The position numbers were made by a program, and so were the translations under genes. A DNA stretch of 32,619 bases. It comes from Verrucomicrobiota bacterium. Its GTDB lineage: Bacteria > Verrucomicrobiota > Verrucomicrobiia > Chthoniobacterales > UBA10450. The DNA lies in contig QHPX01000090.1 in NCBI GenBank assembly GCA_003219195.1, forward strand, positions 1 through 32,619, given 5' to 3'. The notes under the pieces are model-generated. The model saw only the letters and a program-made list of their open reading frames with translations, did not search any database and had not been told where the DNA came from. This document shows, in pieces, positions 10,980 to 28,819 of this stretch. Within the stretch, counting starts at the first letter, position 1, and the number at the start of each line of letters is the position of its first letter.

Positions 10980-11066
10980 AAACGTTCAACGTTCAACTTC
11001 CAACGTTCAACGTTCAATGATCTTCTGCATTCGGCGTTGGACGTTGAGCGTTGAACGTTGAACGTT
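10980..11066. repeat. Inverted heptamer tandem tracts between rnhC and mutY
   Basis: The left part (10980-11017) is five tandem 7-mers of AACGTTC type (one reads AACTTCC). After about 17 bp of spacer the right part (11033-11066) has five 7-mers of ACGTTGA type, which is the inverted orientation. The two arms could fold into a long imperfect hairpin between the divergent genes. The mutY frame begins inside the right arm. A related tract is at 13343-13384. Confidence 0.75.
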
Positions 11067-25160: not shown

Positions 25161-25478
25161 ATGAGCAGCAAACCGAAACAGCCCAGCGCCACGTTGAACT
25201 TCGAAAACGCGATGGATCGGCTGGAGGCGATCGTGGAGCAGATGGAGTCCGGCAAATTGCCACTGGAAGATTTGATTGTTCGTTACGAAGAGGGAATGAA
25301 TCTGGTAAAAATTTGTCAGGAACGACTGGCCAGCGCCGAGCAAAAGATCGAAATCATCGCCCACAACAGCGCCGGCAAACCAATCGTGAAAGATTTTGAA
25401 CCGGCCGCGGAGGCAGAGATCGACAACAAAGCGGCCGATGAAAGAGGAGAACAAACCAATGAAGTCAGACTTTTCTGA
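25161..25478 (+). CDS. xseB: Exodeoxyribonuclease VII small subunit
   Basis: From the ATG at 25161 the protein has 105 residues. NFENAMDRLEAIVEQMESGKLPLEDLIVRYEEGMNLVKICQERLASAEQKIE is the complete XseB core, a helical hairpin that binds the large subunit XseA. Exonuclease VII degrades single-stranded DNA. xseA is not in the window. The frame extends to a TTG at 25149, which is less likely. The C-terminal tail is acidic and contains a motif copy (25416-25425, Glu-Ile-Asp). The 3' end overlaps the dxs start by 20 bp, and the dxs ribosome binding site lies within it; xseB-dxs linkage is common. Confidence 0.93.
   Translation: MSSKPKQPSATLNFENAMDRLEAIVEQMESGKLPLEDLIVRYEEGMNLVKICQERLASAEQKIEIIAHNSAGKPIVKDFEPAAEAEIDNKAADERGEQTNEVRLF
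25444..25450 (+). promoter_or_regulatory. Ribosome binding site that decides the dxs start
   Basis: AGAGGAG (25444-25450) lies 8 nt before the ATG at 25459, while the in-frame ATG at 25438 and the upstream open frame to 25396 have no such site. The start at 25459 is therefore chosen for dxs. Confidence 0.7.
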
Positions 25479-27381
25479 AGGAGCGGCGCCAGCGCGGCTG
25501 CTCGAAGGGATCCATTCGCCCGCTGATGTAAAAGCGCTGCGCGAACAAGATCTGCCGCAGCTGGCGCAGGAGGTGCGCGACGAACTGATCAAAGTCCTTT
25601 CCCAAACCGGCGGGCATCTCGGGCCGAATTTGGGCGTCGTCGAGTTGACCATCGCGCTGCACCGCGTTTTCAACACGCCGCGCGATCGGTTTGTCATGGA
25701 CGTGAGTCATCAGGGTTACGTGCACAAAATGCTCACTGGCCGTCTCGATCGCTTTCCAACGATGCGACAGTACGGCGGATTGAATGGCTTTCTTTTGCGC
25801 ACGGAAAGCGAGCACGATTGCTATGGCGCCGGCCACGCGGGGACAGCGCTCTCCGCTGCCCTCGGGATGGCGGTCGGCCGCGATTTGAAGGGCGACGACG
25901 AACACATCGTGGTCGTGGCGGGCGACGCCGCGTTCACAAACGGGATCAGTTACGAAGCGTTGAACAATGTGAAAGCGAACACGAAGCGCTTCATCGTGGT
26001 GCTGAACGACAACGAGTGGTCGATCGCGAAAAACGTGGGCGCGATCGCCAGCTACTTAAACAGCATCGCGACCAGCCCGACGTTCACGCATCTGCACGAA
26101 AAAGCACGCCAGTTCGTGCAAGCCATCGCCGGCAAAACGGCGGTGGAGTTCGCGCATAAAGTCGAAGAGAGCGTCAAAGGCCTAATTGTGCCAAGCGTCA
26201 TTTTCGAGGAGCTCGGCTTGCGTTACTACGGACCGATCGACGGGCACGACATCCCGTTGCTGATCCGGACATTTGAATTTTTGAAAACGCAGGAGGAACC
26301 GGTTCTCCTGCACATTCTCACCAAAAAAGGCAAAGGTTACGAGCCGGCCATCAAACAGCCGGACAAATTTCACGGACTCGGCAAATACAAGCTCGAAACC
26401 GGCGAGACCGCGCCGACGCCGACTCCGACTTATTCAGAAATCATCGGAAAGACGCTCGCGAAATTTGCGCAGACCAATCAGAAGATCGTTGCCATCACGG
26501 CGGCGATGCCGAGCGGGACCGGTCTGGCGCATTTTGCCAAGGCGCACCCGACTCGTTACTTCGATGTCGGCATCGCGGAAGAGCACGCGGCGCTTTTTGC
26601 CTGCGGTCTCGCGACGCAGGGATTGAAACCCTTTCTCACGATTTATTCCACCTTCATGCAACGCGCCTACGACATGACGATCCACGACATCGCGATCCAG
26701 AAACTAAACGTCGCGCTGTGCATGGACCGGGCCGGGTTGAGCGGCGACGATGGCCCGACCCATCACGGCTTGTTCGACATCGGCTATCTGCGTCACATCC
26801 CGAATTGGCTGCATATGCAGCCAAAAAACGAAGATGACTTTGTCGACATGCTCTGGACCATGGCAAACTACAACTCCGGGCCGATCGCCATTCGTTACCC
26901 GCGAGGTTCCGGTCCCGGCGCTCAAATCAAACCGGAACCGAAACTTCTCGAGATCGGGAAGGCCGAAGTGGTGCAGCACGGTCGTAACGTTGCGATTTTC
27001 GGTTTGGGGAATATGTTTGAAGTTGCCGAAGAAGCGGCACGCAAACTGGAAGAAAGAGGGATTTCTGTCGCGCTCATTAATCCGCGCTGGATCAAGCCGC
27101 TCGACACTGGCACGCTCGAATTTTTCGCGCGGGGCGTGGAAGTCGTCTGCACGATCGAGGACCACGTTTTGTTCAACGGCTTCGGCTGCTCCGTGATGGA
27201 GCATTTGCATTCCAAGCGGATCAATACGCCGGTCGTGCGCATCGGTTGGCCGGACGAATTCATCGAGCACGGAACAATTCCGATTCTGCGCAAAAAACAC
27301 GGAATCACCGCCGATGCGCTGGTCGAGAAAGTGCTGCCGCTTTTGCAAAAAAAATCATCGCCGCGCTCGACCGCAGCCTAA
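25459..27381 (+). CDS. dxs: 1-deoxy-D-xylulose-5-phosphate synthase
   Basis: This 640-residue thiamine diphosphate enzyme makes DXP from pyruvate and glyceraldehyde 3-phosphate, the first step of the MEP pathway. It shows GGHLGPNLGVVELTIALH, DVSHQGYVHKMLTGR, GAGHAGTALSAALGMA, the cofactor motif GDAAFTNGISYEALNN...LNDNEWSI, the catalytic Glu in DVGIAEEHAALFACGLA, and MDRAGLSGDDGPTHHGLFD. Several positions differ from the E. coli type (GDAAFTNG for GDGAxTGG, HAGTALS for HSSTSIS), marking a divergent subgroup but with the key residues kept. It overlaps xseB by 20 bp. No AGATCGACA copy occurs in its 1.9 kb. Confidence 0.95.
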   Translation: MKSDFSEGAAPARLLEGIHSPADVKALREQDLPQLAQEVRDELIKVLSQTGGHLGPNLGVVELTIALHRVFNTPRDRFVMDVSHQGYVHKMLTGRLDRFPTMRQYGGLNGFLLRTESEHDCYGAGHAGTALSAALGMAVGRDLKGDDEHIVVVAGDAAFTNGISYEALNNVKANTKRFIVVLNDNEWSIAKNVGAIASYLNSIATSPTFTHLHEKARQFVQAIAGKTAVEFAHKVEESVKGLIVPSVIFEELGLRYYGPIDGHDIPLLIRTFEFLKTQEEPVLLHILTKKGKGYEPAIKQPDKFHGLGKYKLETGETAPTPTPTYSEIIGKTLAKFAQTNQKIVAITAAMPSGTGLAHFAKAHPTRYFDVGIAEEHAALFACGLATQGLKPFLTIYSTFMQRAYDMTIHDIAIQKLNVALCMDRAGLSGDDGPTHHGLFDIGYLRHIPNWLHMQPKNEDDFVDMLWTMANYNSGPIAIRYPRGSGPGAQIKPEPKLLEIGKAEVVQHGRNVAIFGLGNMFEVAEEAARKLEERGISVALINPRWIKPLDTGTLEFFARGVEVVCTIEDHVLFNGFGCSVMEHLHSKRINTPVVRIGWPDEFIEHGTIPILRKKHGITADALVEKVLPLLQKKSSPRSTAA

Positions 27382-27384
27382 GCA

Positions 27385-27411
27385 AAGGATGAAGGATGAG
27401 GGATGAGCGAT
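27385..27411. repeat. Left heptamer tract (AGGATGA type) of the four-helix-bundle cassette
   Basis: Four tandem 7-bp units (AGGATGA, AGGATGA, GGGATGA, GCGATGA) lie directly after the dxs stop. The start codon of the four-helix-bundle gene is inside the third unit. The inverse of this tract follows the gene at 27766-27793. Confidence 0.8.
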
Positions 27412-27762
27412 GAAAGGAATGACTTGCAAAAACGCACGAAACGCTTCGCCCTCCGCGTTATCAAACTCGACGAGACATTGCCCCGGAGCGGATTTGTTCG
27501 AGTTTTAGGCCATCAACTCCTTCGATCAGGGACATCGGTCGGGGCTAACTTTCGGGAAGCTCATCGATCGCGATCAAATGCCGAATTTGTCTCAAAAGTG
27601 GGCGATTCATCAAAAGAACTCGAAGAAACAGCCTATTGGCTCGAATTGCTGATTGAGTCAGGAGCGTTTGCCGAGCAAAAACTTGCGGCATTGTGCGACG
27701 AAACTTCGCAATTGACCACAATCCTAACAGCGATTGCAAAGAAGGTTCGATCACGTTTGTAA
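27403..27762 (+). CDS. Four-helix-bundle protein (S23/TIGR02436 type)
   Basis: The 119-residue protein has the family motifs KRFALRVIKL at the start, LLRSGTSVGANFREAHRSRSNAEFVSKV in the middle and SSKELEETAYWLELL in the third helix. These proteins form pentameric barrels, are related to the Avd subunit of diversity-generating retroelements, and were first seen in insertions of 23S rRNA genes; the role of free-standing copies is unknown. No reverse transcriptase or variable repeat is near. The gene is framed on both sides by the same heptamer in inverted orientation, with the start codon in the left tract, so gene and repeats look like one cassette set between dxs and the ABC gene. Confidence 0.9.
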   Translation: MSDERNDLQKRTKRFALRVIKLDETLPRSGFVRVLGHQLLRSGTSVGANFREAHRSRSNAEFVSKVGDSSKELEETAYWLELLIESGAFAEQKLAALCDETSQLTTILTAIAKKVRSRL

Positions 27763-27765
27763 GTT

Positions 27766-27793
27766 TTTCATCCCTCATCCCTCCTCCTTCATC
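27766..27793. repeat. Right heptamer tract (TTCATCC type) of the cassette
   Basis: Four tandem 7-bp units (TTCATCC, CTCATCC, CTCCTCC, TTCATCC) begin 4 bp after the stop codon of the four-helix-bundle gene. They are the reverse complement type of the left tract, so the gene sits inside an inverted repeat of about 28 bp. Confidence 0.8.
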
Positions 27794-27799
27794 CTGTTT

Positions 27800-28819
27800 A
27801 TGAGCGCGATTGAAGCCCGCGAGCTGACAAAAATCTACCGCACTTATCGAAAAGAAGGCGGGCTTCGAGGTGCGATTAAGGGACTCGTCAGGCGGCGTTA
27901 CGATGAAACGCACGCGGCGGAGCGCGTCTCATTTCAAATCGACGAGGGCGAATTTGTCGGGTTCCTGGGTCCGAACGGCGCGGGCAAGACCACCGTTCTC
28001 AAGATGCTCTCCGGCTTGCTCAACCCTACTTCCGGTGATGCGCGTGTTCTCGGTTTTGTCCCGTGGGAACGCCGCAATGAAATGAAACGTCAATTCAGTT
28101 TGCTCATGGGTCAGAAAAATGCGCTCTGGTGGGACCTGCCCGCGCAGGAATCGCTGGAGCTGAACCGCGCGATCTACGGAATCGATCGCGGACGTTTTAC
28201 GCAAGTTGTCGGCGGATTGTCCGAACTTCTCGAGGTTCAGGACAAAATGAATGTGATGGTGCGCGAGCTGTCGCTGGGCGAGCGGATGAAGATGGAGCTG
28301 ATCTCCGCGTTGATTCATGAGCCGCGCGTCCTCTTTCTCGACGAACCAACCATCGGTCTGGACGTGGTTAGTCAAAAGCGCGTCCGTGAATTTCTGCGTA
28401 TCTACAACGAGGAACACCGCATCGTGACGCTCCTGACCAGTCATTACATGCAGGATATTGAAGAGCTTTGCCATCGCGTTCTCATCATCGACCATGGCAA
28501 GATTTTTTTTGACGGGCCGCTCGCCGAGATCATCGACCGTTTTTCCGGCCACAAAATCATCAGCCTGACTTTTGAGAAAGAGGAGACGCGCGACTTATCG
28601 GCATTCGGCGAAGTGATTGAGCAAACGCCAGTTTCGATTCAACTGAAGGTTCCGCGCGCAAAAGTCACGGAAACGTGCCGGCAACTGCTTACAGCTTGTC
28701 GTGTCAGCGACATCAATGTACAGGAAGTGCCGGTCGAAGAGGTGATTCGCCAGCTTTTCGGCGAGCGGCATGAGGCCGACCGTATCGCCAGAGCGACAGC
28801 GAACGCTAACGTGAGCTAG
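27800..28819 (+). CDS. ABC transporter ATP-binding protein (ABC-2 exporter type)
   Basis: The 339-residue protein is a complete ATPase subunit: Walker A GPNGAGKTT, Q loop LLMGQKNALWWDLP, a variant signature LSLGERMKMEL in place of LSGGQ, Walker B VLFLDEPTIGLD, and switch His in LTSHYMQDIE. The C-terminal 100 residues are the extra domain seen in ABC-2 type exporters of the DrrA/NatA class. The ATG at 27800 is preferred; the frame extends to 27734 through the repeat tract. The membrane partners normally follow such a gene, but here the next gene is convergent and overlaps by 4 bp, so the permease genes must be elsewhere or have been lost. Confidence 0.9.
   Translation: MSAIEARELTKIYRTYRKEGGLRGAIKGLVRRRYDETHAAERVSFQIDEGEFVGFLGPNGAGKTTVLKMLSGLLNPTSGDARVLGFVPWERRNEMKRQFSLLMGQKNALWWDLPAQESLELNRAIYGIDRGRFTQVVGGLSELLEVQDKMNVMVRELSLGERMKMELISALIHEPRVLFLDEPTIGLDVVSQKRVREFLRIYNEEHRIVTLLTSHYMQDIEELCHRVLIIDHGKIFFDGPLAEIIDRFSGHKIISLTFEKEETRDLSAFGEVIEQTPVSIQLKVPRAKVTETCRQLLTACRVSDINVQEVPVEEVIRQLFGERHEADRIARATANANVS

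Follow-up and report, generated by a model that had tools for sequence, protein, structure and literature searches.

Four-helix-bundle genes of the S23 family are annotated in very many bacterial genomes without a function and are among the commonest such genes. Several known systems resemble the locus described here. The intervening sequence (IVS) of the Coxiella burnetii 23S rRNA is a selfish-type element of about 430 nt, in which S23 is the single ORF; its ends are complementary and it is excised by RNase III (PMC4990558). In the RAYT/REP/REPIN system a gene is flanked by its own inverted repeats (PMC3116915). Cyanobacterial STRR are tandem 7-bp repeats. The TAACTGA repeats of Beggiatoaceae are direct repeats without a partner gene, and their description mentions neither four-helix-bundle genes nor intervening sequences (PMC4679880). 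Finally, PF05635, the Pfam family of S23, resembles Avd, the accessory protein of diversity-generating retroelements (PMC10053308). A link between S23 and heptamer repeats was not found in the open-access literature that we searched, without preprints or subscription papers, which is not proof of its absence.

Here we report that cassettes of about 400 bp, in which an S23 gene lies between mirrored 7-base arrays, are found across Bacteria. The reading we favour, with a probability of roughly 0.75, is that the gene and its two inverted arrays make up one minimal mobile element of about 400 bp, with the reservation that no transposition has been observed and no enzyme identified.

The S23 cassette between dxs and an ABC transporter gene

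The stretch analysed, referred to below as the window, comprises 32,619 nucleotides from a Verrucomicrobiota bacterium. On its forward strand, dxs (1-deoxy-D-xylulose-5-phosphate synthase; 25396..27381, TIGR00204 754 bits) is followed, 4 bp after its stop codon, by the left arm of the cassette (27386..27413). The original prediction had described four AGGATGA units ahead of the gene, four TTCATCC units beginning 4 bp after its stop and a start codon within the left tract, and all three claims hold with refinement. The left arm, read as a tandem repeat, consists of two exact units (AGGATGA at 27386-27392 and 27393-27399) and two variants (GGGATGA at 27400-27406 and GCGATGA at 27407-27413), and the S23 ATG (27403-27405) falls in the third. 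The S23 gene (27403..27762) encodes 119 amino acids. Exactly 4 bp after its stop comes the right arm (27767..27794), a TTCATCC-type array that is the reverse complement of the left arm and is made up of TTCATCC (27767-27773), CTCATCC (27774-27780), CTCCTCC (27781-27787) and TTCATCC (27788-27794). TRF detects both arrays with period 7, in 4.3 and 3.9 copies. The downstream host gene, an ABC transporter ATP-binding gene that adjoins dxs in relatives (27800..28819, PF00005 85 bits), starts at the ATG at 27800, the frame of which was checked.

The enclosed ORF scores 86.2 bits against TIGR02436, for which the curated cut-off is 24, and 71.4 bits against PF05635, with a cut-off of 33.8; the closest solved structure to its product is 2rld (E 4e-19), and no family other than S23 is matched. 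Comparison with the orthologue in a related genome (G001) gives dN 0.058 and dS 0.059 over few changes, and purifying selection is not evident here.

When the 441 nt cassette is folded as RNA, the two tracts are predicted to form one long, very stable stem, with the ORF in the loop and the S23 start codon buried in the stem (z = -4.7); folding as single-stranded DNA gives z -5.7. An Rfam scan of the whole window returned zero matches. To quantify arm pairing, we took as arm score the best local score of the left flank against the reverse complement of the right flank, with thresholds of >=14 and >=17. The window locus scores 30, and >=17 was reached by 1% of 388 background ORFs, simple ORF calls in 433 kb made up of 400 kb of sampled stretches and the window. 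Among these ORFs the window's own S23 is the only one with a heptamer pair.

Matched inverted arms around S23 genes in many phyla

The arrangement is not peculiar to this locus. S23 genes are present in 32 of 39 relatives, at 1-19 per genome, and in 104 of 145 sampled genomes of the phylum. Our comparison covers 201 S23 loci, some of them orthologous to one another: 121 from the phylum (91 from relatives and 30 from its other families and classes) and 80 from Bacteroidota, Firmicutes, Cyanobacteria, Proteobacteria, Planctomycetes, Acidobacteria, Chloroflexi and candidate phyla. Matched inverted arms (>=14) occur in 81-89% of these loci, as against 13-14% for swapped flanks and 5% for ordinary genes. 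The relatives' loci have a median arm score of 18 (81% >=14, 59% >=17), those of the wider phylum a median of 19 (83% >=14) and those of the many-phyla set a median of 21 (89% >=14). By comparison, left flanks paired with the right flanks of other loci have a median of 10 (13.6% >=14, 4.9% >=17), with the same outcome within one genome; the median is likewise 10 for flanks compared in direct orientation and for the background ORFs. About 11-19% of S23 loci have no clear arms. The architecture of arm, S23 gene and inverted arm is thus general for S23 genes in many phyla.

The arms are dominated by period 7, followed by period 8. Arrays with lag 7 stand to the left of 59 and to the right of 44 of the 121 loci, and, apart from 8 and 14, no other lag is seen more than five times. 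Of 448 control stretches lying 500-900 bp away, only 10 have a lag-7 array, compared with the 59/121 on the left. The median array has 4.3 units on either side. Cassettes usually lie between co-directional genes, and in 136 of the 150 cases in which both neighbours are on one strand S23 is in the sense orientation, a bias that fits expression of S23 from the host operon. A phage search yielded almost no S23 relatives, with one weak match.

The heptamer itself is cassette-specific and of identical type in both arms. The 5-mer cosine between arms of the same locus is 0.58 (91% above 0.2), compared with 0.055 after flipping and 0.042 between different loci. A single heptamer serving all S23 genes was considered and rejected, each cassette having its own word. 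As to whether S23 genes elsewhere bear the tracts seen in the window, the outcome favours the original prediction: they have inverted heptamer tracts, but not the same heptamer. The more alike two S23 proteins are, the more alike their arms tend to be, at sites whose neighbouring genes are unrelated (Mantel r 0.33; maximum of 1000 permutations 0.063), and an arm word is common to 50% of protein pairs above 140 bits and to about 1% of those below 110 bits. The match of arms within a cassette, together with this dependence on the protein, indicates that gene and arms travel or evolve together. Between cysD and cysN, six genomes have S23 genes of 47-71% identity with matched arms in two different words, and it is possible either that the arms change in concert or that the cassette has been replaced. 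At these loci (L027, L032, L037, L045, L077 and L080) the arms are paired although species differ in the heptamer, and the right arm of L037 and L045 is seemingly read as part of the CysN N-terminus.

Heptamer hairpins also occur without an S23 gene. They were found in the window, in a related genome (G008, L098), in genus g29 and in cyanobacterial plasmids. The window example is an 86 nt inverted hairpin at 10981..11066 (no strand assigned); its arms are of the AACGTTC type, an arm class common to some S23 cassettes of relatives, and its link to the cassettes is inferred from this arm type. In g29 the word of the gene-less hairpins is identical to that of S23 arms, and in two cyanobacterial plasmids TCAGAAT arms surround a conserved structured insert of about 110 nt (L270:1500-1685 and L271:1500-1682). 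The gene-less elements gave zero matches in an Rfam scan. Across whole genomes the exact words are strongly over-represented relative to the reversed pattern, and S23 is missing from the majority of these places. Arms thus accompany nearly all S23 genes, whereas most tracts stand without one. Since tracts outnumber S23 genes, they may lead an independent existence. The combination of a gene's own inverted repeats with dispersed gene-less hairpins is seen for relatives and plasmids, but not for the word of the window's own cassette.

Presence and absence of gene and arms as a unit

At orthologous places, gene and arms either occur together or are both missing. Our genome collections hold one genome per species, so that most empty sites outside plasmids are between-species comparisons; the empty dxs sites, too, lie in other species and not in strains. 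Throughout the family dxs adjoins the ABC gene. The junction holds the cassette in the window's genome (G000) and an orthologous copy in G001 (L034). In G016 the cassette is inverted, with the same heptamer and 62% protein identity, and in G003 it has decayed to a C-terminal stump and the right tract. In seven relatives (G002, G014, G015, G008, G013, G017 and G011) only 24-77 bp separate dxs from the ABC gene, without a tract. The proposal that gene and tracts form a discrete cassette between these two genes is supported by this joint presence and absence, and where the cassette is missing the two host genes do adjoin. At the same junction, other small genes that look toxin-antitoxin-like by eye stand in three further genomes (L152 in G018, L154 in G005 and L155 in G012), those of G005 being HicBA-like and those of G018 VapBC-like by the same judgement. 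The junction could be an insertion hot spot, a suggestion that rests on small genes identified by eye.

A site in genus g29 shows more than one state: eight species have a type A S23 gene between TTAACAG arms and four an S23 gene whose arms are of the ACTAAAT type, while one has a gene-less CACAGATT hairpin and two lack any tract. S23 is under purifying selection at this site in four intact orthologues (dN/dS about 0.1), and the gene is broken in four other species. In G180, a gene-less heptamer-type hairpin stands at an S23 site.

Cyanobacterial plasmids provide sharp comparisons. At plasmid site 1 the empty form reads AAAAAGTAATTAAC (longer reading AAAAAGTAATTAACAAATAA), and the filled form reads AAAAAGTAAT, then arm, S23 and arm, then GTAATTAAC (longer reading GTAATTAACAAATAA). 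The flanks are about 97% identical between the two, and TAAT or GTAAT (4-5 bp) is duplicated. This is the only site with a clear target duplication; at others the likeness between arm and target makes the junction ambiguous. In a Nostoc operon, the same cassette family occupies junction A in three plasmids, after the stop codon of one gene and before the start codon of the next, and gene and arms are both missing there in three others; a plasmid without the cassette at A has junction B occupied, and vice versa. Further presence/absence pairs are Calothrix/Tolypothrix and Nostoc pNe_5/C057. The S23 site of pNe_5 is taken up in a related plasmid by another element of about 200 bp, which has heptamer arms of a different kind and no S23 (L264:971-1290). 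In Picosynechococcus PCC 7003 an S23 cassette (L273:1471-1827) lies between cas10/cmr2 and cmr3 of a type III-B CRISPR operon, and it is absent in PCC 7002. One cassette family is found at three unrelated plasmid sites (L258, L268 and L269).

Two outcomes would have spoken against the original prediction: tracts equally frequent around random genes, and tracts left behind where the cassette is absent. The former failed to materialise in the background ORFs, and the latter is not so at the clean empty sites, which lack any tract (L260, L261, L276, L278, L279 and the seven dxs sites). Both statements need qualification, as tracts and gene-less heptamer hairpins do occur away from S23, and at two S23 sites a relative has a heptamer-type hairpin without a gene (L264, G180). 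That gene and tracts appear and disappear together, at first only hinted at from the sequence, is now shown by presence and absence; the mechanism is not settled.

A putative mechanism and its relation to known systems

If the cassette is a mobile element, S23 is likely to be its cargo or helper. We infer that the arms may pair into a hairpin whose loop holds the S23 ORF, either in the RNA of the host operon or in single-stranded DNA. S23, as a four-helix-bundle protein related to Avd, would recognise its own heptamer arms; there are no binding data, but the link between PF05635 and Avd makes nucleic-acid binding by S23 plausible. As S23 has no known catalytic domain, the catalysis of insertion would be supplied in trans, by an activity that has not been identified. 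Hairpins that share these arms but lack the gene would then be non-autonomous derivatives, and the arrangement as a whole would work like RAYT-REPIN, with the S23 protein in place of the transposase. A bolder reading, which we hold to be possible but less likely than not, is that S23 genes are a mobile-element class of their own in most bacterial phyla. In it, a non-catalytic multimeric protein would recognise cassette-specific arrays at both ends, and the arms would evolve in concert even with a heptamer that is free to change. The scattered heptamer repeats of cyanobacteria and others would then largely be gene-less derivatives, and the 23S rRNA intervening sequences a branch that landed in rRNA.

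A resident reverse transcriptase was rejected as partner for the window's genome and for G016. RVT_1 was not found in the former, an 87% complete assembly, nor was a reverse transcriptase found in the latter, which has 19 S23 genes; an RNA-intermediate route would therefore have to run without a resident enzyme in these two genomes. An alternative that disputes the catalyst and not the unit is that tyrosine transposases of the Y1 (RAYT) type act in trans to mobilise the heptamer hairpins, S23 being a passenger or accessory of a RAYT-REP-like system. In its favour, Y1_Tnp is present in 36 of the 39 relatives and its count tracks that of S23 (Spearman 0.68, p 2e-6), whereas across the 39 genomes S23 count correlates with neither genome size nor reverse transcriptase count. 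However, the correlation is uncorrected for phylogeny, Y1 was not detected in one genome with an S23 cassette (G034), and the Y1 genes of the same genomes, which served as a positive control, have strong palindromes of their own, in line with what is known of such genes (PMC3116915), that are not heptamer arrays (median arm score 25.5). With lag-7 arrays at 0 of 38 Y1 genes, ownership of the heptamer tracts by Y1 was rejected, and we regard action in trans as unlikely.

Other explanations dispense with mobility, or with the unit. The arms could be an RNA processing or insulating device, in which the stem lets RNase III release the S23 message from that of the host operon, and selection acting on the RNA preserves the complementarity. 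The very stable predicted stem around the ORF with its buried start codon, the sense orientation in operons, the complementary ends and RNase III excision of the Coxiella IVS (PMC4990558), and the cysD-cysN arms, which differ between species yet stay paired in each cassette, all favour this view. It leaves unexplained the presence and absence of gene and arms in near-identical plasmids, the gene-less hairpins elsewhere with the same arms, and the tandem-heptamer form of the arms; we consider it improbable as a full account, though compatible with mobility as a second role. It could also be that the tracts are independent STRR-like repeats and that S23 inserts into existing heptamer hairpins, as IVSs do into rRNA hairpin loops, so that the arms are the target. 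Tracts are indeed far commoner than S23 and often alone, and gene-less heptamer-type hairpins stand at S23 sites in L264 and G180. Against this are the clean empty sites entirely without a tract and the retention of the same arms by one S23 family at unrelated sites, which leave the idea very little room. Chance low-complexity sequence or an assembly artefact has nothing to recommend it beyond the short unit length, and is practically ruled out by the swapped-flank, background-ORF, period and word controls, by the G001 orthologue (L034) and by independent complete plasmid records.

The link between S23 and its arms gives a family without a function a testable role in arm recognition and mobility, and the arms provide a simple rule for delimiting such elements in any genome. 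It also offers a possible origin for the heptamer tandem repeats of cyanobacteria and sulfur bacteria, for which no partner protein had been known, and connects the old puzzle of the rRNA intervening sequences with elements that are far more numerous and lie in ordinary operons.

The cassette has partial likenesses to several known systems. As in MITEs and terminal-inverted-repeat transposons, it has inverted ends, a short interior, presence/absence variation and, at one site, a possible 4-5 bp duplication; unlike them, its ends are heptamer arrays of a freely varying word, no transposase is recognised, and the ORF inside is of an unrelated family. S23 and Avd belong to a homologous fold family, but the reverse transcriptase of a diversity-generating retroelement was not found in the window's genome, as far as the 87% complete assembly shows. 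With STRR and the TAACTGA repeats it has in common intergenic tandem 7-bp units that often lie just upstream of start codons, although, unlike the TAACTGA repeats, S23 arrays are paired, inverted and enclose S23. As in the 23S rRNA IVS, S23 is encoded between complementary ends predicted to form a stem; however, the cassette lies between protein genes (dxs and the ABC gene) and not in rRNA, there is no Rfam match in the window, its arms are tandem heptamers that differ from cassette to cassette, and there are several copies per genome. We file it under neither IVS nor RAYT-REPIN, because a location in rRNA and a Y1 domain were tested for and neither was met. Its ORF lacks the Y1 (HUH) domain of RAYT-REPIN and its arms are heptamer arrays instead of single palindromes, but the two systems are alike in having a small gene within its own inverted repeats, scattered gene-less hairpins, and a repeat type that goes with the protein.
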